From assembly GCA_019694795.1 (NCBI GenBank), contig JAIBBF010000019.1:1-54190 (forward strand): a DNA stretch of 54,190 bases, given 5' to 3'. Below, piece by piece: positions 23,089 to 40,798 of the stretch (its first letter is position 1; each line of letters starts with the position of its first letter). The DNA is from Flavobacteriales bacterium (GTDB taxonomy: Bacteria > Bacteroidota > Bacteroidia > Flavobacteriales_D > UBA2798). Position numbers and translations under genes: made by a program. Below the pieces are notes generated by a model that did not search any database, was not told where the DNA came from, and saw only the letters and a list, made by a program, of their open reading frames with translations.

Positions 23089-25113
23089 TTAGGATTGCTT
23101 TAAAACGCGGAAAGCAGTACGTCTGTTGCGTTGGTGTTGTTCTTCGTACTTATCCGGATCCGATTTTTTAATGGCTTCAATATCATCGCACTTAAAGAGT
23201 GGCTCGGTTTCGCCGTAACCTTGAGGAATTAAACGCTCGCGCGCAATACCTTTCGAAATCAGATAGTCTACGCACGACTGAGCACGTTCTTGAGAAAGTT
23301 TCATGTTGTAGGCATCCGACCCGCGGCAATCGGTGTGCGATTTTATTTCTACTACCAGGTCATTGTTCAGCATTAAGAAATCGTAAAGCTGATCCAGAAT
23401 TTCTTTGGATTTCGGACGAAGCGTTGCTTTGTTAAAGTCGTACTCAATACCGGGAATTTCAATTTCACCGGCAGGGATCGGACGTAAAAAGAAATCCTGC
23501 TCCAGTGTTTTGCTTTCTGTTAATCCGAAAGTAGTAACTGTGGCAGCATCAGCAAAGAATTTTGTTTTCTTGGCTTTAATAAATAATTCCTGCTCCTGTT
23601 TTAAATCCTGCGAGTAAAAACCGTTTTCATCGGTGGTTAGGAAAATAGGTTCATCCTGACCGTTTACATCGTTAAAGGTTAAGAGTGCATTTGGAATAAT
23701 ATCATCGGTTTCTGCATTGTAAACAAAACCGGTGAGTTTAAACGCAATCGGCGAATTGGTGAATTCATAAATGTCGTAGCAATGACCACCATCGCAAGGT
23801 TCTCTGTCGCTCGAGAAGTACCCGTGTTTTAAAAAACGATCTGCCGTAAAATAAGCATCGTCCTGCGGCGAGTTAAACGGTAATCCGATGTTTCCAGGTG
23901 TGGCATAGGTGGAGTCATCCGGATTGTAATAGCTTTTGAAAATATCTAAACCACCGGTTGAATTATGTCCATTGGAACTAAAGAACAGGGTAGAAGAAAC
24001 GTGATGTAAAAAAGGAGTTACTTCGTCGTATTCGGAATTGATGGTAGGACCCAAATTGCGTGGATTAACGGGATGACCATTTTCATCGATGTCGCAAACC
24101 CAAATATCAAAACCACCCGATCCGCCCGGACGATTACTGGAATAGAATAGTTGTTTTCCATCCATGGATATAAATGGATTTTTACTTTGGTATCCAGGAA
24201 CATTTACACTTGAATCGAGTTTATACGCTTCAAAGAACATGTTGTTCATCATACGTGCTTCGTAGATGTTTACATCATTGCGGTTTAAATCCGACCAACG
24301 GGTGAAATACATAAATCCGTCAATGGACATACTTCCGGCTCCATCATGTAAACCGGTATTTACAGGTCGTCCAAAATTACGAGGGGTCGACCATCCTGCT
24401 TCATTTTTTTCTGCCCAATACAAATCGCAGAGATATTCCGATTGTTGTTTTTCCGGATCAAGTAATACACCGCCTGTACGCGCACTGGTAAAAATTATTT
24501 TTTCATAACCATCCCAATAAATCGCAGCAAAATTCGATGTTCCTTTATTTACGCTCGAAGTATCGAGCATAGTAATGATTACTTCGCTTTTTACATTGTT
24601 TACGTCTTTGGCATAATAACAACCAATCATGTCGCGGTCTGCACATTTCGCCAGTGAATCGGTTCGTTTATCGTTTTGTAAATATTTTTCGAAATGAATT
24701 ACTGCAGTGTCGTACTCCTTGATTTGCATATAGGAGTAACCCAGAAAATATTCGTCCTCCGGAAAATGTCCGGTGGTTAAACTATTTTTAAACGAAGGAA
24801 TAGCAGCACTGTAATCGAAAATGTATTTCTGACACATGGCAATGCGATGCAACACATAACTGCGCATCGGGACTTCAGAACCTTGTTTGTTTTTTAATTG
24901 TCCCAGTTTCTGATTGGAGATTTCAGGTTCGTAGGGACGAATCTGCAGGTTCATTACTGAGGTATCATCGAGCGTTTTTAAATAGTAATTCAATGCAGAG
25001 GAATAATCCTTCGCCTTGTAGTACTGATCGGCATAATGCAACCAGAGTTTTTTAGATTGTGCAAATGTGGAGCACGAAATCAGAAGTAGTAATACGGTTA
25101 TAATTCGTTTCAT
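23089..25113 (-). CDS. PorE-like T9SS-associated OmpA-family protein (E2): TPR, propeller, regulatory-like domain, OmpA domain
   Basis: A 674-residue protein. The frame opens further only through a TTG at 25137 inside the upstream gene; the ATG at 25113 gives a signal peptide ending Thr-Phe-Ala before Gln. Order: TPR-like helices (about 20-185), a PD40/WD40-type propeller (about 190-445, repeats such as SMDGKQLFYSSNRPGGSGGFDIW), a carboxypeptidase-regulatory-like beta domain (about 450-545), and a C-terminal OmpA peptidoglycan-binding domain (about 555-674, EIKSHTDCRGSDAYNMKLSQ, RLIPQGYGETEP, RNRRTAFRV). This is the architecture described for PorE of Porphyromonas gingivalis. It is the last gene of the A2-F2-A3-F3-E2 operon, 8 bases after F3. 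Its OmpA domain is almost identical to that of E1. Confidence 0.87.
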   Translation of the reverse strand: MKRIITVLLLLISCSTFAQSKKLWLHYADQYYKAKDYSSALNYYLKTLDDTSVMNLQIRPYEPEISNQKLGQLKNKQGSEVPMRSYVLHRIAMCQKYIFDYSAAIPSFKNSLTTGHFPEDEYFLGYSYMQIKEYDTAVIHFEKYLQNDKRTDSLAKCADRDMIGCYYAKDVNNVKSEVIITMLDTSSVNKGTSNFAAIYWDGYEKIIFTSARTGGVLLDPEKQQSEYLCDLYWAEKNEAGWSTPRNFGRPVNTGLHDGAGSMSIDGFMYFTRWSDLNRNDVNIYEARMMNNMFFEAYKLDSSVNVPGYQSKNPFISMDGKQLFYSSNRPGGSGGFDIWVCDIDENGHPVNPRNLGPTINSEYDEVTPFLHHVSSTLFFSSNGHNSTGGLDIFKSYYNPDDSTYATPGNIGLPFNSPQDDAYFTADRFLKHGYFSSDREPCDGGHCYDIYEFTNSPIAFKLTGFVYNAETDDIIPNALLTFNDVNGQDEPIFLTTDENGFYSQDLKQEQELFIKAKKTKFFADAATVTTFGLTESKTLEQDFFLRPIPAGEIEIPGIEYDFNKATLRPKSKEILDQLYDFLMLNNDLVVEIKSHTDCRGSDAYNMKLSQERAQSCVDYLISKGIARERLIPQGYGETEPLFKCDDIEAIKKSDPDKYEEQHQRNRRTAFRVLKQS

Positions 25114-25121
25114 GGAGATGA

Positions 25122-26117
25122 TCAGATACGAGGACAAATCTTTTGTGTTTTACTTTTTGGTTTTTTACCGATGTAGGTCAGCGATACTTCAAAGGCACCT
25201 TTTCCGTTGGAAGATGGTTGCAGTGTAGAAATATTAATATCGTATGCCAGCTTACCGGTGAAATTTCCTTTACGTGCACCGAGTGATAGGATGGCAGCAT
25301 CTTTGTTTCTGTACACAACGCCACCAAGTACCATTACCTCACTTTGCTTCATGAAAAATCCGGCATCGCAAGCAGCGGTAATTTCGCTGGCAGATGATTG
25401 CATCATGTATAACACTTTCGGTAATACATAAATGAATTCCGTAATGTTAATCCGAACCCCGGTGTGCGCATAAAAACGCATGGGTAATTTATTGGGACCA
25501 CTAAAAAATGATTCTTTGGGTGTTAAGAGATTAAATGCAGATACTCCTAAAAATGGATTTAAGCGACTTTGTTGTTTGGAGTGATAATACAATAATCCGG
25601 CATTAAGTTGCGGAACCAAAACAGAATTGGATTGGAAATTTTCTCCGCTCGGAAGTGAATTATCAAATCCGCCTCCATTGGTAGTTACATACTGATTATC
25701 GTAAGTGAGCAATTGGTACTCTACCGATTTTTGCGTTACTCCGGCTTGCAATCCCATGGAGAAATTATGCGTTTTTTTGCGATCGAGCGGAACGGTATAG
25801 GCTGCAGAAACTGTTCCTTGTAAGGCATTGTAATTTCCTAAACCTGCACGCATATTTATGATCTGTGCTCCAAATCCCCATTTGCCGGTAGGCATATCGA
25901 AACTTAGCAACGAGGTGTTGTAAGGTTTAAAATTAACCGTTCTCCATTGTGTGCGTTGTTGCGCATGCAATCGCCAGTCTCCTTCAAACACGCCGGTCAT
26001 GGCCGGGTTTAAAAAGAGTGGTCCTGCATCATACATGGATAAATGAAAATCCTGTGTTTTGCCCAATAGCGCAAAGCAGCTGAATCCAAAAATTAATATC
26101 GACTTCTTCATAATCAT
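25122..26117 (-). CDS. PorP/SprF-family T9SS outer-membrane protein (F3)
   Basis: A 331-residue protein with a short signal peptide leading to QDFHLSMYDAGPLFLNPAMTGVF, the N-terminal signature of PorP/SprF proteins. The rest is an outer-membrane beta-barrel with alternating strands, e.g. LPMRFYAHTGVRINITEFIYVLPK. It ends in a Lys-rich segment with CPRI. SprF-like proteins are needed for secretion or attachment of type B cargo encoded next to them. The start codon overlaps the A3 stop by one base (TAATG); a second ATG two codons later (26111) is possible. F3 resembles F1 throughout, including NAGL-Y, NPF-G, PKESFF, NKLP-R and RNKDAA. Confidence 0.9.
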   Translation of the reverse strand: MIMKKSILIFGFSCFALLGKTQDFHLSMYDAGPLFLNPAMTGVFEGDWRLHAQQRTQWRTVNFKPYNTSLLSFDMPTGKWGFGAQIINMRAGLGNYNALQGTVSAAYTVPLDRKKTHNFSMGLQAGVTQKSVEYQLLTYDNQYVTTNGGGFDNSLPSGENFQSNSVLVPQLNAGLLYYHSKQQSRLNPFLGVSAFNLLTPKESFFSGPNKLPMRFYAHTGVRINITEFIYVLPKVLYMMQSSASEITAACDAGFFMKQSEVMVLGGVVYRNKDAAILSLGARKGNFTGKLAYDINISTLQPSSNGKGAFEVSLTYIGKKPKSKTQKICPRI

Positions 26118-29100
26118 TAGCGCATTAGGGTTACGTCACCGGTTTTGTTAAACACTTTTCCGCCGGTAATTACAACTTCAACTGTCCAGGTGTAAACACC
26201 CATAGGTTGATCTTCACCTTTAAAGGTGCCGTCCCATCCTTCATTTTGATCGGTGGTTGAGAAAATAAGTTGTCCCCAACTATTATATACACGGAACACG
26301 ATAGATTCAAATGGTCCTCCTCTTACACGGAACACATCGTTTTCTCCATCGCCATTCGGAGTAAATCCGGAAGGTACTGCAGGGAGAAGCGTCACGATCA
26401 TTTCATTGCGTGCTGTATCGGTACAACCGTTTTGATCGGTTACAATTAAATCGACATAATACACACCGCCGTTGTTGTAAACGTGAGTAGGATTTTGCTG
26501 ATTGATTCCGGCAGAGTCGCCAAAATTCCAATACCAGTCAATGATGGGTGTTGTACCTGTAGATAAATCTGTGAACTGTACAGCCTCCAGTGCAAGTACC
26601 GGATTCGGACTCATGGTGAAAGCTGCATTTGGACGTGGAATAATGGTAACAGGAATAATTACAGTATCGGAACATCCTAATGCAGAAGTTACTTCGAGTG
26701 TTACGTTAAATGTTCCCGTTCCCGGGAATACGTGATTCACTACCTGATTGGTTCCATGCGTAGATCCGTCTCCAAAATCATAATCCCATTGGGTAACTGC
26801 GCCAGTGCTGATGAATGACTGATCGGTAAATGTAACCGGAGATCCTTCACACGGTGTATTCACAGTAAAGTTGGCAATGGGTAATGGATTAACAGTGACT
26901 TGTTTTTGAATGGTATCATAACATCCGTTGCTGGATCCGGCAATTAAGGTTACCGTAAATGTTCCGCTTGCGGTATACGGATGCAATGGATTTTGTGCAA
27001 TGGAAGTAGTTAAGTCGCCGAAATTCCAGTTCCAGCTGTTCACACTATTTGGTGTTGCAACAGAGATATCATTGAAGATGGTATTGTCGCCCACACATTC
27101 GATGCTCGCCGTGAAATCTGCCAATGGAGCAGGTTTAAACGTGATGCTCATTACATCGGAGGCAGGATTACAACCTTGATTATTGGTAGAGGTTAGAATC
27201 AAATCCAATCCACCATTCAATACGTCCAATGGCGAAGGTGTGTAGGTAGTGGTTAAGAAATTGGCACCCGGATTAAATGTTCCTGTTCCCGTAGAGGTCC
27301 AGGTTCCGGTATTGGTCACCCCGGTGATGACACCATTCAATTGTACCACTTCATTAGCGCAAAACGCCTGATCAATTCCGGCAAATGCAACGGGTGGAGT
27401 AGCGAAAACTAAAATCATGGTATCGGTTTGTGCCGGACAAATTCCTGCATTGGTGCTCAAGTAAATTTGAATAAAACCTGCAGTGGTATCAATCGGACTC
27501 ACCGAATAAACCGTACTTAATGAATTGTTCGATGCAATACTTCCTGCACCGTTGGTATTCCATAAAGGTGTATAGCCGGAACTAATTGCACCATCCAGAT
27601 TTACGGTTCCCACATTGGCGCAAACGGTATCTTCAGAAACAATAGCAACAAATGGAACATCCACAAATTGGATTTCGATACTATCGCGAACGGCTAAGCA
27701 ATTTCCATTGTTGGTCGATGTCAACGTGAGGTACACAATTCCATTCGTTGTATCTGTAGGATTTACATTATACACGGTATTTAAATTACCGGCGGGACTA
27801 AATGTTCCTCCTCCGAATGTTGACCATGTACCTGTTGTTGTTGCTCCACTTACAGAACCGCTGATATTTACCTGTGGTGTATTTGCACATAAAACCTGAT
27901 TTGCACCTGCATTTACCATTGGTGGATCAGTAAAGAATACAACCAGCGTATCCACATCGTTCGGACATGCAAAGAAGCTTCCTGCCGAAGTAAGAATTAA
28001 TACCAAACTATCTTGCGATAAATCTGCAGGTGATGGTGTATAAGTTGTACTTAATGCTCCATTATTGGCAAATGCACCACCATTACCACCAGTCCATGTT
28101 GCACCGGCAGCAAATTGTAATGTTCCGCTTACAGGAATATCGGTGATATTGTTTTTGCAATAGATGTTTGCTGTTCCAGCATCAACAACCGGCGATTGAA
28201 TAAAGGTAACACGCATGGTATCCGCCACCGGTTCGCAGTTTCCTGTACTTTGAAGTACGAAGGTTAATGTTCCTTGCGTATAATCTGATGTTGTGGGTGT
28301 ATAGGTTGTAGTTAGATTGGTAGGTGTTGCAAGCGTACCTGAACCATCCAATACATTCCATATTCCCGTTGTACTTCCGCCTTCAACGGTTCCCGATAAA
28401 TTGATTACCGGCTCGCCCGAACAAACGGTTTGATCGTTTCCTGCATTGGTATAAACGCGACGGATAAAGGACGACATATAGTGGTATAAACATCCGGTTG
28501 ATGTTCCTCCATTAATAATTCCTAATCCGAAATTATCAATTGAATTGGTGAGAATGTTAGAAGAACCAGAAGCGATTTGTGCTGTGGTAAACGTTAACTG
28601 CGCAGCCATCCATTGTCCACCTGTACCAGGCACCGCATTAAATGATCCTGCAGGAACTAATGCTCCACTTCCGTTTAATAGGAAACCGCCTTCTGCTCCG
28701 GTTGGACACAAAATATTCAATGAGAAATTCTGTGGATTCGTTCTTGGAAAGGTTACGATGTCGGAACCGGAACAGTTTAACGGAGGAAGAATTGCTTTTC
28801 CTAATTCACAACCGTATCCTGTCATATGTAACACGTACACATTTTTATCTGCAGATACGGATGTTCTTGGTTGCAATAATTGATAGCGATAGGTGTCGCC
28901 CTGATTTAAAATAACGGTTGTTGCTGTACCGTCGTTAATTGTTACGGTGGTGAAGTTTTCAGTAGCTGTAATAAAGCACGATTCTTCTGAACCCGCATTT
29001 AAAAATCCTTTTAATACGATATAGTCTTTACCGATTACATCTGTTGGTACAGTTTGGTCTCCCATTAAATCGTAACATCCTCCACCACCTGATGGGTTAA

Positions 29101-29845
29101 CGGAGTCGTCGGTAACAGTTACGGCAATCGGATTGCTGGCTACAATAACGGTACCTGCTAAATTATTTCCGGGTACTGAAGTGTTTTGGACCATGTTTTG
29201 AATCGTGTAGCATTGTCCTTTTAAAGGCAAGGTCACCGAATACGTTACATTGGCAGGATGTCCGCCTACCACATTACAGCGCGGTGTAATATATATTACC
29301 GTGTTGTCTTCTGTTGCCACTAAATTGATTTGCTGGTAAGGTTGGGTAACTGTTCCATCTCCATTTAAATCCCCTCCCAAGGTTTGATTGTTCCATCTGG
29401 TTTGAAAGGATGCAACGAATTCAGTTCCTAATCCATTTTGACCCTTCAATGAAAAAGTTTCCGGATTGTAATACTGCGGTGCGCGGGTAATTACATCGTA
29501 AACTATGGTAATAGGGAAATCAGATGTGATTTTAAATCCATAGGGTAAAACGGTATTCGCCGGTTTGCTTTCAATGGTATTCATCATATGATGAACCGTT
29601 TTTGAAAACAAGGAATTCGCAGGCACAACAAAAGTGGTATCGTAACCGGTTACGGGTTGTTGCAAACGAATGGTGGTTGGATTACCAAAGGTTGAAAAGT
29701 GGAATGCAATAGGATCTCTCCAGTGGTGATCCGGAGTTACCCATGGTGCTGCAAACCAAAACAAGGTATCAACTTGTGCATGTAGCTTTGATCCGAACCA
29801 GTTAAGTCCGAAAAGCAAAAGGAAAATATATTTCAGGTTCTTCAT
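26117..29845 (-). CDS. Giant T9SS type B cargo protein (A3): IgGFc-binding-like N-terminus, five Cys-pair repeats, three PKD domains, CHU_C tail
   Basis: A 1242-residue protein. A longer frame runs back into F2; the ATG at 29845, one base after the F2 stop, gives a signal peptide ending Leu-His-Ala before Gln. Residues about 25-460 resemble the IgGFc-binding N-terminal domain of Bacteroidota surface proteins (GTEFVASFQ, VIYITPRCNV, GKDYIVLKG). About 465-905 hold five repeats of roughly 88 residues with an early Cys in a C-x-N context and a late Cys. Three PKD domains (WNWNFGD, WDYDFGDGS, WYWNFGDS) lie at about 907-1150. The type B sorting domain starts at GFTPNGDGENDVF and ends VTLMR. It is an exported surface protein, probably adhesive; no enzymatic motif is seen. 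Confidence 0.9.
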   Translation of the reverse strand: MKNLKYIFLLLFGLNWFGSKLHAQVDTLFWFAAPWVTPDHHWRDPIAFHFSTFGNPTTIRLQQPVTGYDTTFVVPANSLFSKTVHHMMNTIESKPANTVLPYGFKITSDFPITIVYDVITRAPQYYNPETFSLKGQNGLGTEFVASFQTRWNNQTLGGDLNGDGTVTQPYQQINLVATEDNTVIYITPRCNVVGGHPANVTYSVTLPLKGQCYTIQNMVQNTSVPGNNLAGTVIVASNPIAVTVTDDSVNPSGGGGCYDLMGDQTVPTDVIGKDYIVLKGFLNAGSEESCFITATENFTTVTINDGTATTVILNQGDTYRYQLLQPRTSVSADKNVYVLHMTGYGCELGKAILPPLNCSGSDIVTFPRTNPQNFSLNILCPTGAEGGFLLNGSGALVPAGSFNAVPGTGGQWMAAQLTFTTAQIASGSSNILTNSIDNFGLGIINGGTSTGCLYHYMSSFIRRVYTNAGNDQTVCSGEPVINLSGTVEGGSTTGIWNVLDGSGTLATPTNLTTTYTPTTSDYTQGTLTFVLQSTGNCEPVADTMRVTFIQSPVVDAGTANIYCKNNITDIPVSGTLQFAAGATWTGGNGGAFANNGALSTTYTPSPADLSQDSLVLILTSAGSFFACPNDVDTLVVFFTDPPMVNAGANQVLCANTPQVNISGSVSGATTTGTWSTFGGGTFSPAGNLNTVYNVNPTDTTNGIVYLTLTSTNNGNCLAVRDSIEIQFVDVPFVAIVSEDTVCANVGTVNLDGAISSGYTPLWNTNGAGSIASNNSLSTVYSVSPIDTTAGFIQIYLSTNAGICPAQTDTMILVFATPPVAFAGIDQAFCANEVVQLNGVITGVTNTGTWTSTGTGTFNPGANFLTTTYTPSPLDVLNGGLDLILTSTNNQGCNPASDVMSITFKPAPLADFTASIECVGDNTIFNDISVATPNSVNSWNWNFGDLTTSIAQNPLHPYTASGTFTVTLIAGSSNGCYDTIQKQVTVNPLPIANFTVNTPCEGSPVTFTDQSFISTGAVTQWDYDFGDGSTHGTNQVVNHVFPGTGTFNVTLEVTSALGCSDTVIIPVTIIPRPNAAFTMSPNPVLALEAVQFTDLSTGTTPIIDWYWNFGDSAGINQQNPTHVYNNGGVYYVDLIVTDQNGCTDTARNEMIVTLLPAVPSGFTPNGDGENDVFRVRGGPFESIVFRVYNSWGQLIFSTTDQNEGWDGTFKGEDQPMGVYTWTVEVVITGGKVFNKTGDVTLMR

Positions 29846-29846
29846 C

Positions 29847-30827
29847 TTATTTCTGTTTTTCCTCTGTTTCACGTTGCTTTTTGTTTTTCTCCATAATGGA
29901 GTTATTGAGTTCTTCATCTTCTTCATCCAACGATTTTTTCTTGGTGGTTAATCGGAAACTGATGCCAATTTCATGGGTTCCGTTTTGGTATGGGTTGATG
30001 GACGATAATGAATAGTCGTAAGAATAACCAATGGTGAGTCGGTTAAACGCAGTGTATCCTACACCAATACTTGCCGCATCTGATAGGCGATAGGTGGCCG
30101 ATACCCAGAAGTTTTTATTAAAGATTCCGCGTAAACTAAAATCTGCCGATACGGGTAATCCTTTGGTATAGCGAACAAGCGTTGAAGGTTGCAACTCAAA
30201 ATTTTTCTTGAAGGCATGTGTGTATCCTCCCATTAAATTGTAGTGCATAGCTAACTGGTCGTTATAGGTAGTAAAGCTGATGCTTTGTCCCAATACCTGA
30301 TTAGCCGATAATCCGACAAAGAATTTTTCATTGTGAATATAGGCCCCGGAATTTAAATCGATGGCGTTGGCAGATAGAACATTTCCGGTCAGCAATTCAT
30401 CTCCTCCGTCAACCACGCGTACATCATATAGGCGGACACGGTATTGCACAAATCCAGGACTTACACCCAATCGCAATGAGGTTGTTTTATTTAATTTGAT
30501 TTTATACGAGTAGTTAATGTAAACTCCGGTGCGAGCGGTGAGTCCTACATTATCCGAAACAATCATTCCCGCAAAGCCATGTTTCTGACGATCTTTTACA
30601 GATCCGATTATACTTGCAGAAAATGTTTTAGGAGCACCATCAAATCCTGCCCACTGATTGCGGTAGTTAATGTTGGCACGATGAAATGCTTCACTTCCTG
30701 AAATAGCAGGATTGTAATACAAGGGGTTTAACAGGTAGTTGGTGTAAATAGCCTGTTGCTGCGAATACACTTTTCCAAATGAAAACAGTGCAAGGCAAAT
30801 CGAAATTATGGATTTAAAATTCTTCAT
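29847..30827 (-). CDS. PorP/SprF-family T9SS outer-membrane protein (F2), divergent subfamily
   Basis: A 326-residue protein: signal peptide to Val-Tyr-Ser, then QQQAIYTNYLLNPLYYNPAISGS, the PorP/SprF N-terminal signature, and NINYRNQWAGFDGAPKTFSAS. A predicted beta-barrel ends in HEIGISFRL. It differs clearly from F1 and F3 and carries a C-terminal tail of about 30 residues that is almost entirely charged (KKKSLDEEDEELNNS and onward) in place of their CPR ending. It lies 14 bases after A2 and one base before A3, so it is coupled to both. It most likely serves A2. Confidence 0.9.
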   Translation of the reverse strand: MKNFKSIISICLALFSFGKVYSQQQAIYTNYLLNPLYYNPAISGSEAFHRANINYRNQWAGFDGAPKTFSASIIGSVKDRQKHGFAGMIVSDNVGLTARTGVYINYSYKIKLNKTTSLRLGVSPGFVQYRVRLYDVRVVDGGDELLTGNVLSANAIDLNSGAYIHNEKFFVGLSANQVLGQSISFTTYNDQLAMHYNLMGGYTHAFKKNFELQPSTLVRYTKGLPVSADFSLRGIFNKNFWVSATYRLSDAASIGVGYTAFNRLTIGYSYDYSLSSINPYQNGTHEIGISFRLTTKKKSLDEEDEELNNSIMEKNKKQRETEEKQK

Positions 30828-30841: not shown

Positions 30842-33800
30842 TTATCGGATCAATAGAATAGTACCAGTAATCGGTTCAGGCTTCGAAGGGTCTTTCAAAT
30901 CAAGAACGAAGAAATAAGTAGAGGCAGGTAATGGCTCTCCATTAAAGGTTCCATCCCATGGTGTTGTATAACCGTCGGAAGAAAATAGTTTTTGTCCCCA
31001 GCGGTTAAATATTTCTACACTAGCATTCGGATAAAGAATGGAAATGAAGTTGAGTTTCCATACATCATTTTTTCCGTCACCATTCGGTGAAATAGCATTT
31101 GGAATTAATGTACTGATGTCGTTAGATACCGTGTTGATGGAGATATAGACTCTGGCTGTATCTGAACATCCCAGGTTGTCGAACACAATTTGTGTAATCT
31201 GGTATAGTCCATTCGCAAAATAAATATGCGTTGGATCTTGCAATGTAGATCCTCCGGTACCATCCCCAAATTCCCATTCGAAGATGGTAGCATTGGAGGA
31301 GGTGTCGATAAATTCAACTTCAGCTCCAACATTTAATCCACTGGCGGTATTGTAATAGAAACCGGCGCTTGGTCGAGGATTAACGGTGATGGGTGTTACA
31401 ATGGTATCGCGACATCCATTCGTAGTGGAAACGATGTGCGTAATGTAAAATGTTCCTACACCTGTAAATACTTGGGTGGCATTTTGTGCAGCGATATTTC
31501 CTAAACCGCCAAAATCATAATACCAGTAGTTGATCGATCCAGAACTTACTGTTGAGTTATCGGTAAAATCAATCGTCACTTGTGATCCGCTACATGCAGG
31601 TACGTAGCTGAAATTAGCAACAGGAAGAGGATATACAGTTACGGTTTGCGATAAGGTGTCTTTACATCCTGTAGTATTGGTTACAATCAATTCAACAGGA
31701 TAAGATCCGTCGGCCAGATAAGTATGTGTTGGATCTTGAGAGGTAGAAGTATTTCCATCGCCAAAATTCCATTCCCATGTGTTCAATGAACCATATCCTG
31801 GTAAAGAAAAGTCGGTGAATGAATTGCTTTCATTTAAACAAACATTGTTGTAGTTAAAATTCGCAAATGGAGGAGCAACAAAATCAATGCGCATCGTTGC
31901 GGATTCTGCAAGGCAATTTCCGTTTGATGTAGAGGTGAGTGTAAGAATTACATTTCCATTGCTGATTTCCGCTGCCGTTGGTGTATAGCTGGCGTTTAAA
32001 TCGGATGAGGAAGGACTAAATGTTCCCGCTCCGCCGGTCCAGATACCACTGGTGGTGGGACCACTAACTACTCCGGCTAAATCTACTGAAGGATCATTGC
32101 TGCAGGCAATCTGATTAACTCCGGCATTTACGGTTGGATCGGGAGTAAAGGTGACCACAATACTATCGATGGCCGGATTACAAATGCCGTTGTTGGTGGA
32201 TTCAAGATACAGTGTTACACTTCCTGAATTTACATCCGTCACCGAAGGTGTATAGGTGGCGTTGAGTGATAAATTATTCGGAGAAAAAATTCCGTTACCA
32301 GAGGTGGTCCATCTTCCGGTAGTTGCCGTTCCGGAAATAGTTCCGCTTATGGAAATGTTCGGGTTGTTACTGCAGGCTGTTGCTGTTGCAGGACCCGCAT
32401 CTGCTTTCGGTACATCAGTAATGGTTACAACCATGGTATCGCTTACCGAAGCACAGGTACCTATGTTGGTCGCTGTAAGAACTAAGATCACCGTTCCATT
32501 GGCAGTGTCGGTAGAAGAAGCAATGTAATCGGCATTTAAATCGGTGTTTTGCGGACTAAACGTTCCGTTGCCTAGTGTCGACCAAATTCCTGTTGTTGCT
32601 CCACCGGTAACTCCGCCATTCAGATTTACGATAGCGTTGTTTCCACAAACTGTTTGGTCGGCAGAAGCATTTACAATTGGTGCGGGTTCAACAGTTAAAA
32701 TCAATGTGTCGCGTTGTACGGGACAAGGACCGGTAGAGGATAAAATTAATTTTATGGGACTCACAACAGTGTCGAGTCCATTAGGAAGATAATTATTGGT
32801 TAGGCTGGTCAATCCATTTTGGAAACTTCCGAATCCGGTAGAACTCCATGTTCCGGTTACTGATCCGCCACCAACAATTCCGTTTAAGCTAAAAGGAACG
32901 TTGGCACAAACGCTTGCATCTGCACCTGCATCAACAAAAGGATAAGAACTGAATTCGCTGAGGTATGCAAAACCTGATCCGGCAGTACTGCTTCCGTACA
33001 TAATTCCCATTCCGAAAATATCGCCACTATTGGTTACAATGTTGTAACTGTTTTGCGGAATATCGGTGGTGTTAAAAAAGATCAATGCACTTTTATAATT
33101 TCCGCCGGTACCCGGAACAGTTCTAAATGCAGAGGAAGGAATTAACGATGAATTTCCGTTTAATTGAAATTGTCCTTCAAATCCTGTTCTTGTATATAAT
33201 CGCAAAGCGAAAGAGTCGGTAACAGGACGAGTAAATGCGGTGGAGTAGGTTCCTGCGCAAAGTAAATTCGGCACCTGCGCTCCACTTAATTTACATCCAT
33301 TTCCTGATGCATGAAAAACATAAACGGGTTTTGAAGTTTGAATGAAATTTACCGTGTCGGTAATACTGATTTCATAAGCTTCACCCCAGTTGATTAATGT
33401 GGTTGCTGTACCACTATTGTAAACATTAACCGAAGTTCCGTTTTGTGTAGCCAGCACATACACTTTTTCGTTGATGGCTTTTCCTTTGTGAATGATGTAA
33501 TCTTTCCCGATGTATTGCGAAGAAGTAATCTGGTCTGCCATTGTACTTAAACATCCGGTGTTACTCATTGCGCCCATGTAAACAGTTACGGCAACGGGTT
33601 TATCGGAAGAAATAATAGATCCACTTAACGAGGTAGTAGATACCAAATCACTTTCGCGTGCAGAATAGGTTTGTCCCGCATTCAGCGTTATGCTGTAGGT
33701 TGAGTTTACGGCATGTCCGGTTACTGCCGAACGTGGAGTAATTAAAACGGTAGTTGCATTTTGCGTTGCAACAATTTCTATACTGTTAAACGAAGCTGGG

Positions 33801-34258
33801 GTAGTGGAACCGTTGTTCCAGAATTTTTGGAATGGTGTATAAAATTCGGTTCCTAATCCTTTTTCTCCTTTTAATGAAATGGCTTCTTTGTTGGATGCAG
33901 CTCCTATTTCGTAGAAAACGCTAATGTCTGCCGTTGAGCTAATGTGCAGACCGTTGTTGTTAACCGCATTTCCGGATGGACTTTCGATGGATGCCAAAAA
34001 TGCGCTGAGGTTCACATTTTGGGTAGCATTTGCTCCCAGGTTTACCACAATGGGTGTAAATCCGCCATTGGCCGGTTGATTGATGGTTACCGTTGCAGCC
34101 GAGCCATAACTCATGATTCGCAAACCAATGGGCTGGTCACCGAGTGATGCAGAAACCTCAGGAGCCGCCAGCCAGAAATCGGTGTCAATCTGGGCAGATG
34201 TACGGCTAAAAATCCCGCTAAACAGTAAAATTAAAAGAGCAATTCGACTTTTGGTCAT
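30842..34258 (-). CDS. Giant T9SS type B cargo protein (A2): IgGFc-binding-like N-terminus, four Cys-pair repeats, three PKD domains, CHU_C tail
   Basis: A 1138-residue protein with a signal peptide ending Thr-Ser-Ala before Gln. Residues about 25-437 form an IgGFc-binding-like domain alignable by eye with A3 (GTEFYTPFQ, VLITPRSAV, GKDYIIHKG). About 438-793 hold four 88-residue repeats (e.g. VNASADQTVCGNN to NIGTCASVSDTM). Three PKD domains are at about 794-1045 (WEWNFGDGN, WEFGDGT). The type B sorting domain is ISPNGDGKNDVW, NRWGQKLFSS, PWDGTFNGEPLP, ending TILLIR. It is the first gene of the five-gene operon, with its own promoter and a direct repeat in the leader. Confidence 0.9.
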   Translation of the reverse strand: MTKSRIALLILLFSGIFSRTSAQIDTDFWLAAPEVSASLGDQPIGLRIMSYGSAATVTINQPANGGFTPIVVNLGANATQNVNLSAFLASIESPSGNAVNNNGLHISSTADISVFYEIGAASNKEAISLKGEKGLGTEFYTPFQKFWNNGSTTPASFNSIEIVATQNATTVLITPRSAVTGHAVNSTYSITLNAGQTYSARESDLVSTTSLSGSIISSDKPVAVTVYMGAMSNTGCLSTMADQITSSQYIGKDYIIHKGKAINEKVYVLATQNGTSVNVYNSGTATTLINWGEAYEISITDTVNFIQTSKPVYVFHASGNGCKLSGAQVPNLLCAGTYSTAFTRPVTDSFALRLYTRTGFEGQFQLNGNSSLIPSSAFRTVPGTGGNYKSALIFFNTTDIPQNSYNIVTNSGDIFGMGIMYGSSTAGSGFAYLSEFSSYPFVDAGADASVCANVPFSLNGIVGGGSVTGTWSSTGFGSFQNGLTSLTNNYLPNGLDTVVSPIKLILSSTGPCPVQRDTLILTVEPAPIVNASADQTVCGNNAIVNLNGGVTGGATTGIWSTLGNGTFSPQNTDLNADYIASSTDTANGTVILVLTATNIGTCASVSDTMVVTITDVPKADAGPATATACSNNPNISISGTISGTATTGRWTTSGNGIFSPNNLSLNATYTPSVTDVNSGSVTLYLESTNNGICNPAIDSIVVTFTPDPTVNAGVNQIACSNDPSVDLAGVVSGPTTSGIWTGGAGTFSPSSSDLNASYTPTAAEISNGNVILTLTSTSNGNCLAESATMRIDFVAPPFANFNYNNVCLNESNSFTDFSLPGYGSLNTWEWNFGDGNTSTSQDPTHTYLADGSYPVELIVTNTTGCKDTLSQTVTVYPLPVANFSYVPACSGSQVTIDFTDNSTVSSGSINYWYYDFGGLGNIAAQNATQVFTGVGTFYITHIVSTTNGCRDTIVTPITVNPRPSAGFYYNTASGLNVGAEVEFIDTSSNATIFEWEFGDGTGGSTLQDPTHIYFANGLYQITQIVFDNLGCSDTARVYISINTVSNDISTLIPNAISPNGDGKNDVWKLNFISILYPNASVEIFNRWGQKLFSSDGYTTPWDGTFNGEPLPASTYFFVLDLKDPSKPEPITGTILLIR

Positions 34259-34353: not shown

Positions 34354-34383
34354 CAAAGGTAGTTAATTAAGCGCGTAAACCAA
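34354..34383 (-). promoter_or_regulatory. Promoter of the A2-F2-A3-F3-E2 operon
   Basis: Minus-strand TTG (34381-34383), a 19-base spacer and a perfect TACCTTTG (34354-34361), giving a leader of roughly 90 bases before A2. Confidence 0.65.
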
Positions 34384-34485
34384 TGAAAATGCCGCATTAA
34401 TCGGACAAAGTCAGGGTTTAGTCTTTTAAAAAACGGGTTTTGGTAGCACTAAAAATGGACGTTGGACAATGAAAAAACGTTGCAT

Positions 34486-34513
34486 AAAAAAAGCCCGGAA
34501 TTGACCGGGCTTT
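34486..34513 (-). terminator. Rho-independent terminator of the A1-F1-E1 operon
   Basis: A 9-bp perfect stem (AAAGCCCGG, 34490-34498 with 34505-34513) with a 6-base loop, followed on the minus strand by a T run. It starts 24 bases beyond the E1 stop and separates the two T9SS operons. Confidence 0.85.
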
Positions 34514-34536
34514 GGGAATTAAGGATGAATGTTTTT

Positions 34537-36591
34537 TTATTCTTGTTTAACAACACGGAAAGCTGTTCTTCGGTTGCGCTGATGCATTTCTTCTTTTTTA
34601 TCGGCATTTTGTTCAGCCTCGATATCATCGCATTTAAACAAGGGTTCCGTTTCACCATAACCTTGAGGAATCAAGCGTTCTTTGGCAATTCCTTTCGAAA
34701 TGAGATAGTCGACACAGGATTTCGCACGGTCTTTTGAAAGTTTGAGGTTGTAATTATCGTTACCGCGGCAGTCGGTGTGCGATTTAATTTCTACTACCAG
34801 GTCATTATTCAGAACAAGGAAGTCGTAAAGCTGATCCAGAATTTCTTTGGATTTCGGACGAAGGGTTGCTTTATCGAAATCGTATTCGATACCCGGAATT
34901 TCTATTTCACCGGTAGGAATTAAGCGCAGGTAAAAATCTTGTTGCAGGTGTGTGGTCTCTGTAATTCCGGTGGTGTTTACGCTTGCAGCATCGGCAAAAT
35001 ATTTGGTCTTTTTACCTTTCATAAATATCTCCATCCCCACATTTAAACCGGTCTTATAAAAACCGTTTTCATCGGTAATTAAAACAATCGGTTCCCATTC
35101 GCCATTTACGTCCTTCAATTCTACAATTGCACCCGGAATCGGTTCTTCTGTAGCTGCATCGTAAACGTAACCCTGAATATCAATTTCAATGGTTCCTTTT
35201 ACAAATCCATACAATTTTTCGCAGTTACCCGAGATTACTTCCGAACTATCGCAAGAGCTGCATTTTTCTCTGTCGGATGCGTAATATCCGCGTTTCTGAT
35301 CCGGAGCCAGAATAAAATAACGGTCGTCTTTATTGGAGTTGATGGGTGCACCCATGTTGATGGGGGTCGACCAAATGCCTTCGTCTTCTACAAATTGAGT
35401 TTTAAAAACATCTAATCCGCCAAATCCTCTGTGACCTGTAGATGAAAAATAAAGTGTATTGGTCAGAAGATGATAATAAGGCGTTGTTTCATCTTCAGCG
35501 GTATTTACAACGGGACCCAAATTCACCGGGTCACCTAGAATTCCGTCTGCATCTACCGGACAATACCAGATATCTAAACCGCCTTGTCCGCCCGGACGAT
35601 CCGATGCAAAAAACAACTTGGTTTCATCCATGTTTAACATCGGCATCATGGTTTTATAACCTTCCATGTTGATGTCGAGTTTTAATGGTTCCATCCAACG
35701 TTTATTGAAACGCTTGCTTACATAGATATAACACTCTTTTCTGTTCTCGGGATTCCAGCGCGTAAAATAAAAAGTGCTGCGGTCAACCGACAACACCGAT
35801 CCGCCTTCATTCATCTCGGAATTCACAGGTGATGCAAAAGGTAATGGTTGATCCCACGATGCACTGTCTTTTTGTGAAACGATAAATAAATCGGAAGTGT
35901 ATTTTCCGTCGTCTTTTTTCGGATCAAGAACCGTATTGCCGGATTTTGCATTGGCAAAAATGAGTGATTCATCCGTAAAGAAATTTACGCCAAAGGAAGC
36001 AACACCAGAATTAAATGTGGAGTCGAGTTTATGAATGAAAATATCGTTGCGCCGGTTTTCTTCATTGCGGGCAAAAGCACAACTGGCAATTTTGTTTTCG
36101 GTGAGTTGTTTCATTTTTTCATCACCGGTTTCATTTAAGAAGGCTTCAAAATAACTTTGTGCTTCTTCGTACTTATCATTATGCATTAAACAGCTAGCAT
36201 AATAATATTTTGCATTCGGGAATTGTGGCGATGGATTTTCCATAGCGGTTTTGTACCACAGTTCTGCATTGTCGTAATCCCTCAACAGGCGGTACGATTC
36301 GGCTAAACGATGAATCACGTAAACTTTTTTCGCATCGGAAGCATCCACTTTTGCAGTGCTGTCGCTTTTTTCCTTTTTTACGGAACGGGATGCGGATACA
36401 ATTTCATACGGATAGGTAAGGTCGTACTTGCCCGGAATGTGTTCAACAATTCGTTTATAGAAATAAACTGCGGAGCCGTAGTTTTCTTTTTGAAAGGCAG
36501 CGTCGCCGAGTTCTATCAGTTCTTTTTTGCTTTGTGCCTGTGCAATCAATCCGATGAACAGGGATACAAGAAGTAGTATATGTCTTTTCAT
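34537..36591 (-). CDS. PorE-like T9SS-associated OmpA-family protein (E1): TPR, propeller, regulatory-like domain, OmpA domain
   Basis: A 684-residue protein with a signal peptide ending Ala-Gln-Ala before Gln. TPR-like helices lie at about 20-190. A PD40-type propeller at about 195-455 includes MDETKLFFASDRPGGQGGLDIWY, broken here by a Cys-rich loop near its end (CSSCDSSEV). A carboxypeptidase-regulatory-like domain at about 460-560 contains GAIVELKDVNGE. The OmpA domain follows (EIKSHTDCRGNDNYNLKLSK, NRRTAFRV). It would tie the outer-membrane secretion machinery to peptidoglycan. It starts 2 bases after F1 and ends at a terminator. Its OmpA domain matches E2 far better than its N-terminal half does. 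Confidence 0.87.
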   Translation of the reverse strand: MKRHILLLVSLFIGLIAQAQSKKELIELGDAAFQKENYGSAVYFYKRIVEHIPGKYDLTYPYEIVSASRSVKKEKSDSTAKVDASDAKKVYVIHRLAESYRLLRDYDNAELWYKTAMENPSPQFPNAKYYYASCLMHNDKYEEAQSYFEAFLNETGDEKMKQLTENKIASCAFARNEENRRNDIFIHKLDSTFNSGVASFGVNFFTDESLIFANAKSGNTVLDPKKDDGKYTSDLFIVSQKDSASWDQPLPFASPVNSEMNEGGSVLSVDRSTFYFTRWNPENRKECYIYVSKRFNKRWMEPLKLDINMEGYKTMMPMLNMDETKLFFASDRPGGQGGLDIWYCPVDADGILGDPVNLGPVVNTAEDETTPYYHLLTNTLYFSSTGHRGFGGLDVFKTQFVEDEGIWSTPINMGAPINSNKDDRYFILAPDQKRGYYASDREKCSSCDSSEVISGNCEKLYGFVKGTIEIDIQGYVYDAATEEPIPGAIVELKDVNGEWEPIVLITDENGFYKTGLNVGMEIFMKGKKTKYFADAASVNTTGITETTHLQQDFYLRLIPTGEIEIPGIEYDFDKATLRPKSKEILDQLYDFLVLNNDLVVEIKSHTDCRGNDNYNLKLSKDRAKSCVDYLISKGIAKERLIPQGYGETEPLFKCDDIEAEQNADKKEEMHQRNRRTAFRVVKQE

Positions 36592-36593
36592 CT

Positions 36594-37589
36594 TTATAAT
36601 CTTGGACAGGTTTTAACTGGGTTCGGATCGATTTTTTTGTTGATGTAGGTAACCGATAATTCTAAACCTCCTCTTCCGTTAGTTGCAGGCTGCAGGGAAG
36701 AAGTATTGATGTCGTAACTAATGCGGTAAGTGAATTTTCCTAATTGTAAACCGGCCATAATTACAGCTGCATCTTTGTTTCTAAAGGTCGGACCAAACAA
36801 TAAAAACGCATCCTGATCCGCGAGGTAGTAATGGATGTCCATGGCATAAGTTAATTCTCTCGCATTTTTTTCTCCCATATAAAATGCTTTTCCAACCAGC
36901 TGAATTTTTTCGGTCAGATTAACTTTTGTTCCCCCATGAGCAACCCATCTTACCGGTAGTTTGTTGTTGGAGTTAAAGAAGGATTCTTTTGGTTGATTGA
37001 TGTGGAAAAATGAAATGCCTGCAAAGGGATTAAACAATGCACTTTCCTTTCCGTAGAAATACATCAGTCCGGCATTAAAATCTCCTTTAAGCACACTGTT
37101 ACCGGCAAAGTTTTCACCCGATGAAACGTTCTGGTCGAAATAACCTCCCTGGTAGGGACTATACTGACTTCCAAAACTGAGTTTTTCGTAGTTGATGCTT
37201 TTCTGAAATGCACCTCCTTGTAGACCGATACTCAAATGGTGATTATTGTTTTTATCTAATTTGATTTTATAAGCTGCTGAAACCAAAAAACTAAATACGT
37301 TGTAGTTTCCGGCTCCTGCTCTGAAGTTTGCAATTTGTGCTCCAACCGAAAACTTTTTTAAAGGCATATCGCCACTAATTAATCCGGTGGTAAATGGTTT
37401 TGTTGCAATGGCCGACCATTGAGTGCGGTAGTGTCCGTGCAATCGTAAATTCCCTTTAAACATACCCGTCATGGCAGGATTTATATTTAAAGGTGCTGCT
37501 TCATATTGCGAAAGGTGAAAATCTTGCGCAGAAACGAGTCCCCCAATGGGAGTAAAAAGCAAGGCTATAATCAGTTTTTTCATTCTCAT
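36594..37589 (-). CDS. PorP/SprF-family T9SS outer-membrane protein (F1)
   Basis: A 331-residue protein: signal peptide to Val-Ser-Ala, then QDFHLSQYEAAPLNINPAMTGMF, the PorP/SprF signature, followed by RTQWSAIATKPFTTGLISGDMP and a beta-barrel. It ends TCPRL. Same length and pattern as F3. The ATG at 37589 is 17 bases after the A1 stop; a second ATG (37583) is two codons later. Expected role: outer-membrane partner needed for export or attachment of A1. Confidence 0.9.
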   Translation of the reverse strand: MRMKKLIIALLFTPIGGLVSAQDFHLSQYEAAPLNINPAMTGMFKGNLRLHGHYRTQWSAIATKPFTTGLISGDMPLKKFSVGAQIANFRAGAGNYNVFSFLVSAAYKIKLDKNNNHHLSIGLQGGAFQKSINYEKLSFGSQYSPYQGGYFDQNVSSGENFAGNSVLKGDFNAGLMYFYGKESALFNPFAGISFFHINQPKESFFNSNNKLPVRWVAHGGTKVNLTEKIQLVGKAFYMGEKNARELTYAMDIHYYLADQDAFLLFGPTFRNKDAAVIMAGLQLGKFTYRISYDINTSSLQPATNGRGGLELSVTYINKKIDPNPVKTCPRL

Positions 37590-37606
37590 GTTACTTCCCT
37601 CCCCGT

Positions 37607-40600
37607 TTATCGTAATAATGTTACATCACCGGTAATCACGTGCTCAACACCGTCTTCTGTTACGGCACGCACCTGGTACACATAAACACTCATTGGTTGC
37701 GGAACATTTTTATACGTTCCATCCCAACCGAGGCAAACATAGGGACCGCATTGCTGAATGTCGGTCGATTCGAAAATCAATTCTCCCCAGTTGTTGTAAA
37801 TACGGTACTCCAATTCTTTGAATGGACCGCCGTAGATATAGAGAAAATCATTATTGCCATCGCCGTTCGGACTAAACGCGTTTGGAATATCCGGTGGAAG
37901 GAAAACAATGATGTCGGATTTAGTTGTGTCGTAACATCCATTTCCATCCTCCACTACCAGAATCACCGAATAGGTGCCACTGCCGTTGAAGCCATGACTT
38001 GGATTCTGATTCAAATCAATGGCAGAACTATCTCCGAAATTCCATTGCCAACTAACGATTTGTCCCGCCGGTGTGGATTGATCCGTAAAGTTTACAACTT
38101 CAAACTGATTCACCGAATAGGATGATGCAATGTAAGCAGCGTTTGGACCCGGAAGTACATTGGTATTTTGAGTTAAGGAATCGATGCAACCGAAAGCTGT
38201 CGTCGCTATCAATGTAACCGAATAGGAACCTGCACCCGGATAAAGGTGATTTGGATTTTGCACTGTAGAAGTTCCTCCATCGCCGAAATTCCACTGCCAT
38301 CCTGTAATGGTTGATCCCACTACCGAACTGGTATCTGTAAAATCGGTTCCGCCATTTAAACATGGATTCGGAGAGTAAAATCCAACTTCGGGCAGATAAT
38401 GAACGTCTACAGGTTGTGTTAACGTGTCTTTACATCCATTGGATGAAGTGGCAATCAGCGTAACATTGTAGGTTCCTGCCTGCGCAAATAAATGAGTAGG
38501 ATTTACAGAAGTAGAACTCTGTCCATCGCCAAAATCCCAGTTCCAGCCAACCACTCCGCCAATGGCAGTAGATCCGTCGGTGAATACTGAAGTAATTCCA
38601 AAGCAAGGTTCTGTAAAACTAAAGGCAGGAACAGGTGATGGAATGATGGCAACATCGATCGTGTCTTTGGCAGCCTGACATCCTCCGTTGTTGATGGATG
38701 TAAAAATTAACGTCACCGTTCCATTGCTAATATCATTTGCACCGGGGTGATAATAAGATCCCACCAATGAATCGGGTGTAAAAATTCCGCTTCCGAGTGT
38801 GGTCCAGATTCCTTGTCCTGTAGTTACATTCACCAACAGTGGAATCGGATCACCGGAACATGCGGTGTCGTTATTCATGATGAGTGCGGTAGGTGGATTA
38901 TAAAATCCGACTTCTACTGTATCGGTTGTTGTTATACAATTTCCAACATTGGTAGCGGTAAGATAAAGAGTAACCGCTCCTGCTGCAGTGTCTGCTGCGC
39001 TTGGAATGTAGGTTGCATTGAGTGTATTTGCATTGGGTGAAAATGTTCCGCTTCCACTGCTGCTCCATGTTCCGCCACCTGCAAATTGCACGGTTCCATT
39101 GAGAGGAACTCCACTGGTATCTTTACAAACCTGAATATCGGCTCCGGCGTTTACATCGGGACCATCCACAAAAACGATGTGTAGAGTGTCAACTGCAGTG
39201 GGACATAATCCATTTCCGGTGGAAGATAAAACCAGGAACATCGAGCCTGCACTCACTTCAGCTGCTGATGGAGTGTAATCGGTAACTAAGGTACTGCTGT
39301 TCGGATTAAAGGTTCCATTTCCATTGAGCCAGAGTCCACCCGAAGCATTGTTTACCGTTCCGTTCAAACTTACCAATGGATTGTTGTTACAGGCAGAAGT
39401 ATCGGGTCCCACATTTACACTAGGCAGCGATTGTACAAATACAGGGTGATTGATCGTATCGCGGCAACCTGAGGATGAATTAATGATGAGTTGAACATTG
39501 TATAATCCACCGCTAGCAAACGTATGTGTTGGATTCGGTAATCCGGAAGTGGGCGATCCATCTCCGAAATTCCAGGTCCATGAATTCACGGTATTATTCG
39601 CAGAAGCTGTAGATGTATTGCTAAAGGAAGCGGGTGAACTGATACAGACGGAATCCGGATTATTGAAATCGGCATTCGACCATGCAATTGGAAATGTTCG
39701 GTAGGCTGTGTCGGCACATGGGGTTCCATATTGTGCAATTAGTTGTACCGTGTAGGTTCCGATTCCGGGATAGGTATGCGAAGGATTGGTTTGTGTAGAT
39801 GTAGGAGATCCGTCACCAAAATCCCATACAAATCCGTTGGCAGTTATGGATGAAGTATTGTTGAACTGAATGGCATTTCCTGCACATCCGTTTACGGGTC
39901 CAATTCCCGCAAGGGCTGGTGGGGGACAAACCACTACGTTAAACTGGAAATCGCGGTATACACTTCCAATTAAAATTCCATCGCGCCACTCATCGCAGCG
40001 AACACCAACTACGTACTGTCCGATATTGGATGGAATTCCATCTACAATTCCACCGCTGCTGATGGTTAGGTTAGCTCCTCCAAGCGGATTGTTTACGCCG
40101 TAACCGGGATTGTAATTTACATATACAAAATTCGGAACGCCGGCAGTAAAGGTTAAATCGTTTGGTGTTAAATAATCGATATCAGAAAGTGGATTGTAAA
40201 AGGAATACACCAATGAATCTCCATCAGCATCCGTAGCACTGTGATCGAAATCGAGTGGTTGCCCCTGACAAACGAATACAGGTGGGAAATTCACCCATTG
40301 GGGTGAACTGTTGGTGAGCAACATAGTGTTATCTGAAATTCTGCAGTAAAATCCTTCTCCCGCATTGAGTGGGTTGTTCAAATTGACAATGGAAGAATTT
40401 CGGCAACAGGTTTCAAAATACAAATGATATCCGCCTGCTACAGGTGGTAAGTTATTTACGATACCGGCATACAAACCCTCCTCTACACAAATACCCGGAT
40501 CTGCTACGCAGGTGTCGAGATTTAGCGGCACTGTTGTGAGCTGAATTCGGTTTAAGGTTACCGAAGCATTGAAGGTACCATTCGCATTATAAATTTCAAT

Positions 40601-40798
40601 CGCTGCTGAAGTTTGCAAATCGGCATGCGGTCCGGTTGCAGGTGTACAGTCGCGATACAGTTTTAACAGAATCCGATAGGTACTTCCTCCCAAATGTTCG
40701 TAGGTGAGGGAACCTCCAACAATATGCGTTGAGTAGGCAGGAGAGAAGGTGATTAAAAAAATAAATACAGAAAGTAGCCTGTAGAGTTTTCCTTTCAT
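37607..40798 (-). CDS. Giant T9SS type B cargo protein (A1): H-x-GG N-terminal domain, PKD and Cys-pair repeats, CHU_C tail
   Basis: A 1063-residue protein with a signal peptide ending Ala-Tyr-Ser before Thr. The N-terminal domain (about 25-290; HIVGGSLTYE, YRDC, ETCCRNSS) is shared with the lone type B protein at 5274-9359. Two PKD domains follow (about 296-457, WDFGDGSP, WNWGDGSP-like with FGDGSP), then three 88-residue Cys-pair repeats (458-718), three further PKD domains (719-965) and a type B sorting domain (AFSPNGDGNNDFL, YNNWGELIFES, GWDGTYKNVPQP, ending VTLLR). It is first in the A1-F1-E1 operon. It is a surface-exposed, probably adhesive filament-like protein. Confidence 0.9.
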   Translation of the reverse strand: MKGKLYRLLSVFIFLITFSPAYSTHIVGGSLTYEHLGGSTYRILLKLYRDCTPATGPHADLQTSAAIEIYNANGTFNASVTLNRIQLTTVPLNLDTCVADPGICVEEGLYAGIVNNLPPVAGGYHLYFETCCRNSSIVNLNNPLNAGEGFYCRISDNTMLLTNSSPQWVNFPPVFVCQGQPLDFDHSATDADGDSLVYSFYNPLSDIDYLTPNDLTFTAGVPNFVYVNYNPGYGVNNPLGGANLTISSGGIVDGIPSNIGQYVVGVRCDEWRDGILIGSVYRDFQFNVVVCPPPALAGIGPVNGCAGNAIQFNNTSSITANGFVWDFGDGSPTSTQTNPSHTYPGIGTYTVQLIAQYGTPCADTAYRTFPIAWSNADFNNPDSVCISSPASFSNTSTASANNTVNSWTWNFGDGSPTSGLPNPTHTFASGGLYNVQLIINSSSGCRDTINHPVFVQSLPSVNVGPDTSACNNNPLVSLNGTVNNASGGLWLNGNGTFNPNSSTLVTDYTPSAAEVSAGSMFLVLSSTGNGLCPTAVDTLHIVFVDGPDVNAGADIQVCKDTSGVPLNGTVQFAGGGTWSSSGSGTFSPNANTLNATYIPSAADTAAGAVTLYLTATNVGNCITTTDTVEVGFYNPPTALIMNNDTACSGDPIPLLVNVTTGQGIWTTLGSGIFTPDSLVGSYYHPGANDISNGTVTLIFTSINNGGCQAAKDTIDVAIIPSPVPAFSFTEPCFGITSVFTDGSTAIGGVVGWNWDFGDGQSSTSVNPTHLFAQAGTYNVTLIATSSNGCKDTLTQPVDVHYLPEVGFYSPNPCLNGGTDFTDTSSVVGSTITGWQWNFGDGGTSTVQNPNHLYPGAGSYSVTLIATTAFGCIDSLTQNTNVLPGPNAAYIASSYSVNQFEVVNFTDQSTPAGQIVSWQWNFGDSSAIDLNQNPSHGFNGSGTYSVILVVEDGNGCYDTTKSDIIVFLPPDIPNAFSPNGDGNNDFLYIYGGPFKELEYRIYNNWGELIFESTDIQQCGPYVCLGWDGTYKNVPQPMSVYVYQVRAVTEDGVEHVITGDVTLLR

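Follow-up and report, generated by a model that had tools for sequence, protein, structure and literature searches.

The analysed window, a stretch of 54,190 nucleotides from a Flavobacteriales bacterium (assembly GCA_019694795.1, contig JAIBBF010000019.1), carries a cluster of genes for cargos, carriers and anchors of the type 9 secretion system (T9SS) on its minus strand at 23089-40798. The eight genes follow one another as A1-F1-E1 and then A2-F2-A3-F3-E2, where A denotes a T9SS type B cargo, F a PorP/SprF carrier of the outer membrane and E a PorE-like anchor. We found that a terminal cysteine of predicted carriers such as F1 and F3 is matched with cysteines in a loop of the last propeller blade of the predicted anchor. 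We propose that the three surface adhesins of this locus are held still and that the joint between carrier and anchor in this clade is probably covalent, namely a disulfide, and we place the probability of this reading at about 0.5. The initial annotation of the locus gave the gene families without this cysteine code and was incomplete in that respect. The carriers and anchors in question, together with their cysteines, are the following.

36594-37589, minus strand: F1, PorP/SprF-like outer-membrane carrier, 331 amino acids, tail ...KTCPRL (TIGR03519, 170.0 bits)
36606-36608, minus strand: codon of F1 Cys328, the terminal cysteine at position -4, read from the sequence
34537-36591, minus strand: E1, PorE-like TPR/propeller/CRD/OmpA anchor, 684 amino acids (NF052230, 335.9 bits; PF00691, PD40, TPR)
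35221-35262, minus strand: last-blade cysteine loop of E1, with C444 (35260-35262), C447 (35251-35253) and the invariant C457 (35221-35223)
25122-26117, minus strand: F3, PorP/SprF-like carrier, 331 amino acids, tail ...KICPRI (TIGR03519, 169.3 bits)
25134-25136, minus strand: codon of F3 Cys328, the terminal cysteine at position -4, read from the sequence
23089-25113, minus strand: E2, PorE-like anchor with its ATG at 25113 (NF052230, 305.4 bits; PF00691)
23779-23796, minus strand: last-blade cysteine pair of E2, at 23794-23796 and, for the invariant cysteine, 23779-23781

F1 and F3 fall in a divergent PorP clade with a lone terminal cysteine in the motif CPR[LI], and C328 is the sole cysteine of F1. 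A census that covered the source genome plus 11 relatives within its order gave 149 carriers with a judgeable downstream flank. The tails of carriers with an adjacent E gene were mostly of the type [S/T/N]PR[FY][FL] (class a) or had a lone-cysteine CP motif (class b, including F1 and F3). In a first alignment, the residue corresponding to E1 C457 was invariant in 17/17 class-b E proteins and absent in 11 class-a E proteins. In an alignment of 63 rows, the loop cysteine of E was likewise invariant. Wider sampling, for which the queries were of class b, provided 155 scorable adjacent F-E pairs. Where the carrier had the terminal cysteine, the E loop contained at least two cysteines in 100/100 adjacent pairs; where it had none, the loop pair was present in one of 55 and missing in 54. 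The census alone gave 7 with and 0 without the loop pair for terminal-cysteine carriers, against 1 and 36 for the others. The terminal cysteine was located at position -4 or -5 and followed by Pro in 100/100 carriers, and in 82/100 it was the only cysteine of the mature protein, leaving it there without a partner in the same chain. The match also holds for unlinked genes. Six checked genomes of this clade (G011, G068, G087, G145, G258 and G273) have a Cys-tailed F without an adjacent E, and an E with a CC loop was found elsewhere in all six; in two further apparent cases (G269 and G284), F and E are in fact adjacent. Where cysteine-less carriers branch within the clade on the F tree, they are not followed by an E gene, except at L283, L288 and L298, whose adjacent E has no loop cysteines. 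As a control, we inspected 12 genomes with only weak relatives of class-b F, in which none of 30 E-like loci had the loop pair.

In the census, an E gene adjoined 49 of the 149 carriers, with a median F-E spacing of -1 and with a type B cargo upstream of 47 of the 49. None of the 24 carriers with at least two tail cysteines, as in SprF, had an adjacent E, compared with 49 of the 125 others (Fisher p = 2.9e-5), and restriction to carriers with a cargo left 0/9 twin-Cys carriers against 47/96 others (p = 0.004). A broad sample of the phylum added little, most of the drawn genomes having few or no PorP/SprF. Some carriers are fused to wall-binding domains of their own. A gene on contig C8 of the source genome (L012:9128-10540), with a type B cargo ahead of it and no PorE-like gene next to it, encodes a PorP carrier that has a coiled coil and ends in a SPOR domain (32.8 bits, cut-off 21); carriers of the same type at L110 and L114 have weaker SPOR matches, which exceed the cut-off in L012 only. 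In a Bacteroidales metagenome-assembled genome, a single gene behind a type B cargo (L180:2721-4700) fuses the PorP barrel with CRD repeats and an OmpA domain. Because SPOR and OmpA domains are peptidoglycan binders, these fusions speak for wall attachment of such carriers as a general principle. A Bacteroidota-wide class of type B adhesin carriers may exist that is disulfide-locked through its C-terminal Cys to the last-blade loop of the anchor, and tail chemistry (lone Cys, twin Cys, PRYF-type or a fused SPOR/OmpA domain) may then decide whether an adhesin is fixed or moved; we give this wider generalization not quite an even chance. Another carrier class ends in [IV][IMV]PCA[KR]F, with a single cysteine and without an adjacent E (L069, L070, L086, L097, L109 and L117).

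According to the proposed mechanism, each A would cross the outer membrane via the T9SS translocon and would then be retained on its PorP/SprF-like barrel F through the C-terminal signal domain. In the periplasm, E1 and E2 would hold F1 and F3, and the OmpA domains of the E proteins would grip peptidoglycan. C328 of F, four residues from the end and followed by Pro, would probably form the disulfide with the invariant cysteine of the last-blade loop (C457 in E1), and the second cysteine of the loop (C444/C447 in E1; a vicinal CC in relatives) probably holds the donor disulfide. A2-F2, which has no terminal cysteine, is a further pair and probably a non-covalent neighbour. Such a static carrier-anchor clamp would be a counterpart of the SprF-GldK bond with the roles swapped: there, the cysteine pair is on the carrier and the partner is a moving track, whereas here the pair is proposed to be on the anchor and the partner to be the fixed wall. 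For a structural model, we used AlphaFold2 on a natural in-frame F-E neighbour pair of a relative (L157) with the stops read through. The barrel, TPR, propeller, CRD and OmpA parts were predicted with confidence (mean predicted local distance difference test score, pLDDT, of 85.2; predicted template modelling score of 0.61), and the model placed the cysteine loop between the last two propeller strands. The best Foldseek match was the PorE C-terminal domain 6TOP, besides which the T9SS complex chain 8gl6_F and FadL-type barrels came up.

Several points weigh against a covalent clamp. The analysis shows the genes, their domains and conservation and the co-occurrence of the cysteines, from which the complex, its static state and the disulfide are inferred, and the cysteines of the E loop could simply bond to each other. 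The pair counts are not independent because the sequences are related and the wider sampling was made with class-b queries. The association is also largely clade-level: the E proteins with loop cysteines form one clade of the E tree, which requires a single change for the loop cysteines and two for the F cysteine, so that the counts overstate independence. For the terminal cysteine, the F tree calls for three changes. We also considered that the cysteine pairing arose independently many times, which the trees do not support; independent pairs were too few for sign tests. A real exception is L142, in which E has CC and the F tail is SERL (L201, the other exception, is not scorable), and G224 has no Cys-loop E at the best match. 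Terminal-Cys carriers of family f12 and of the IPCAKF class have no adjacent E. Finally, docking of the F tail was not seen in the L157 model, which neither shows nor excludes it because the tail is unstructured there (residues 320-337, pLDDT <50).

The main rival is the same static complex of cargo, carrier and PorE-like anchor, as proposed for P. gingivalis and F. johnsoniae, with non-covalent contacts in place of the bond between F and E, the loop cysteines forming an internal disulfide and the F cysteine being free or having another use. For P. gingivalis, Gorasia et al. 2022 (PMC9143113) showed a tripartite PorE-PorP-PG1035 complex. The E loop has two or three cysteines that could pair within E, 54 of the 55 adjacent pairs without the terminal cysteine manage without the loop pair, and the predicted F tail is undocked. 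We nevertheless regard this explanation as rather unlikely, since it leaves unexplained why the cysteines of F and E occur together even when the genes are unlinked, and does not account for the strong invariance of the F cysteine, which in most carriers is the only one. A partner other than E could be GldK of the moving track, which would make A1 and A3 mobile gliding adhesins and leave a separate role to E. Both GldJ and GldK are encoded in the source genome, GldK having several cysteines, and P. gingivalis PorG illustrates that a single-Cys partner can suffice for the track bond (PMC12635249). This seems improbable given that the census shows no E gene next to any twin-Cys SprF-like carrier while the single-Cys clade nearly always has one, that a wall-bound E would oppose movement, and that the only tested F. 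johnsoniae cargo with a PorE homologue next to its gene is static, the mobile cargos having no such neighbour (PMC12618676). It is equally hard to believe that E1 and E2 are general tethers between outer membrane and peptidoglycan, placed in the operon for co-expression and making no contact with the neighbouring carrier. OmpA-domain proteins commonly serve so, and the genome contains many other PorE-like/OmpA proteins (35 match stretches of the PorE model), but the upstream cargo at 47 of 49 E-adjacent carriers, the tight F-E spacing, the natural carrier-OmpA and carrier-SPOR fusions, the matched cysteines and the cross-linking of PorE and PorP in P. gingivalis (PMC9143113) all argue against it.

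The family assignments were based on profile cut-offs. F1, F2 and F3 passed that of TIGR03519 (90.55 bits) over the full model and are thus PorP/SprF members, and A1, A2 and A3 passed that of TIGR04131 (35 bits) for the type B sorting domain, which CHU_C also marks in all three. E1 and E2 missed the NF052230 cut-off for PorE (600 bits), for which reason we call them PorE-like rather than PorE. They have the PorE domain set, with TPR, PD40 and OmpA found by Pfam in both and a CRD-like domain in E1, and the best match of the E1 OmpA domain is 6TOP, the solved peptidoglycan-binding domain of PorE. The signal peptide of E1 (...GLIAQAQSKKEL) has no cysteine and hence no lipobox; in that of E2 (...LLISCSTFAQSKK) a lipobox can be read either way. 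E1 and E2 are 47% identical overall. Their OmpA domains are 88% identical (82% in DNA) and the remainder 36% (52% in DNA); in G001, which belongs to the same genus, the OmpA domains of all paralogue and ortholog pairs resemble each other to roughly the same degree, as if homogenised by gene conversion. The SprF-type Cys-X-Cys tail is absent from F1 and F3, with one tail cysteine each, and from F2, with none. A sequence search of PDB chains with F1 gave no match. The cargos, the remaining carrier and the transcription signals of the locus are as follows.

37607-40798, minus strand: A1, type B C-terminal domain (CTD) cargo, 1063 amino acids, five PKD domains (Pfam PKD_4, CHU_C; TIGR04131, 37.9 bits)
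34490-34513, minus strand: intrinsic-terminator-like hairpin 3' of E1, 9 bp stem with 6 G-C, plus T-run
34354-34383, minus strand: Bacteroidota -33/-7 promoter-like site 5' of A2, TTG-N19-TACCTTTG, exact match
30842-34258, minus strand: A2, type B CTD cargo, 1138 amino acids, N-terminal IgGFc_binding and PKD domains (PF17517, PF18911; TIGR04131, 71.7 bits)
29847-30827, minus strand: F2, PorP/SprF-like carrier of a different class, 326 amino acids (TIGR03519, 258.6 bits)
26117-29845, minus strand: A3, type B CTD cargo, N-terminal IgGFc_binding and PKD domains (PF17517, PF18911; TIGR04131, 47.8 bits)

The initial annotation had described eight consecutive minus-strand genes in two operons; the genes lie as stated, and the Pfam and NCBIfam profiles confirmed the families. 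The spacings of -1 to 17 bases claimed within the units hold once two starts are corrected, that of A3 to the ATG at 29845 (the listed open reading frame, to 29926, would overlap F2) and that of E2 to the ATG at 25113. With these starts, 17 bases separate A1 from F1 and 2 separate F1 from E1 in the first unit, and the second unit has 14 (A2-F2), 1 (F2-A3), -1 (A3-F3) and 8 (F3-E2). The terminator after E1 was borne out as a strong hairpin with T-run at 34513-34490, and the promoter before A2 as a perfect -33/-7 match at 34383-34354; as the consensus scanned (TTG-N19-TAnnTTTG) had 2 exact matches in the window against 1.55 expected by chance, the promoter call rests on its position before A2. 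The cargos, termed giant, are large rather than giant at about 1,060-1,250 amino acids. The proposed duplication of cassettes applies to A1-F1-E1 and A3-F3-E2 only: F1 and F3 are 48% identical, F2 is 26-28% identical to either, and its acidic/lysine-rich tail without cysteine is kept in L071 and L092. Two identical duplicated cassettes are ruled out, since F2 falls in another carrier class; judged from these identities, the units A1-F1-E1 and A3-F3-E2 are paralogues of each other, with A2-F2 as an additional pair. The claim of a separate partner for each cargo is likely right for A2/F2, because the CTD of A2 is 37% identical to the other two and F. johnsoniae cargos showed crosstalk at 68% identity and not at 43% (PMC12618676); for A1 and A3, with CTDs that are 52% identical, it is less certain. 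A fourth type B cargo of the window (5274-9359; PKD, weak SprB repeat) has no adjoining PorP/SprF gene, and three type A (Por_Secre_tail) T9SS cargos lie directly upstream of A1 and beyond (40927-43419, 43416-45467 and 50398-51624).

The locus itself is ordinary for Flavobacteriales. All eight genes recur in the same arrangement in G001 (record UBA2798, Flavobacteriales; L071 and L151), where A1 and A2 are apparently interrupted or split in the assembly, and A2-F2-A3-F3-E2 recurs in a genome of another family of the order (G004, L092). The A-F-E order was also found in Vicingaceae, Crocinitomix, Maribacter and Flavivirga, so that the neighbourhood search suggested in the initial annotation did recover the cognate genes together in relatives. 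One contig (L158) reads A-F-E-F-E, with two Cys-tailed carriers each followed by an E and apparently one shared cargo. Genome-wide, the source genome contains 22 PorP/SprF and 54 type B sorting-domain match stretches. The description of a dedicated, self-contained surface-fibre locus stands for the dedicated set of cargo, carrier and anchor, which recurs, and fails for self-containment: the T9SS/gliding core lies outside the locus, with gldK on contig C1 and gldJ on C27. A PorP gene with a twin-Cys tail (...CKPKKRSFRTISCPSF) adjoins gldJ (C27:1-735) and is conserved order-wide, and another with the tail ...TVRFL and a cysteine 19 from the end adjoins gldK (C1:299142-299978); neither has a cargo or an E gene next to it. 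At 482 bits, the gene at C61:6279-8723 scores highest in the genome against the PorE model; it lies directly 3' of a type B cargo, and no carrier is listed in between.

Type B adhesins have been proposed in the field to be either propelled, as SprB-SprF on the track, or fixed, as with PorP-PorE, without a sequence rule separating them. The tail classes suggest such a rule that can be read from sequence, and they give a concrete cysteine pair to mutate, making the idea directly testable. As far as the searched literature goes (mainly titles and abstracts), the tail code and the matched cysteines are undescribed, and we found no report of a PorP-PorE disulfide there. If true, a second, static use of an intermolecular periplasmic disulfide would be notable, because permanent bonds of this kind have been described as almost unknown beyond SprF/PorG-GldK (PMC12635249).

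Comparison with known systems identifies the triad of cargo, carrier and anchor as a known kind, given the published P. gingivalis complex and F. johnsoniae operons. In F. johnsoniae, six porP-like genes adjoin porE-like genes (PMC9143113), and Paillat et al. 2025 described five operons with a PorE homologue, a type B substrate and a shuttle (PMC12618676); a PorE-like gene within a cargo operon is therefore not the unfamiliar feature it had been taken for. Gorasia et al. postulated that mobile cargos use PorP-like proteins alone and fixed cargos add PorE (PMC9143113). The present locus shares with PorE-PorP-PG1035 the type B CTD cargo, the PorP barrel, the TPR/propeller/CRD/OmpA anchor and the 6TOP match of E1, and differs in the lower PorE scores (336 and 305 bits against the cut-off of 600), the lack of a lipobox in E1 and the organization in one operon; the lone tail Cys and the matching E-loop cysteines were read in this locus. 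F. johnsoniae Fjoh_3952-3951-3950 has the same order of cargo, SprF-like carrier and PorE-like gene. Only static foci of Fjoh_3952 were seen on the surface (PMC12618676). Unlike the F. johnsoniae operons, the present locus has two units side by side and an extra A-F pair. With SprB-SprF on the GldJKN track it would share a periplasmic C-terminal carrier tail offering a cysteine to a periplasmic partner. However, SprF moves and, as Liu et al. 2025 showed (PMC12635249), has a Cys-X-Cys tail joined by a disulfide to Cys343 of GldK, whereas F1 and F3 have a single Cys, F2 has none, and F1 and F3 sit beside wall-binding E proteins.

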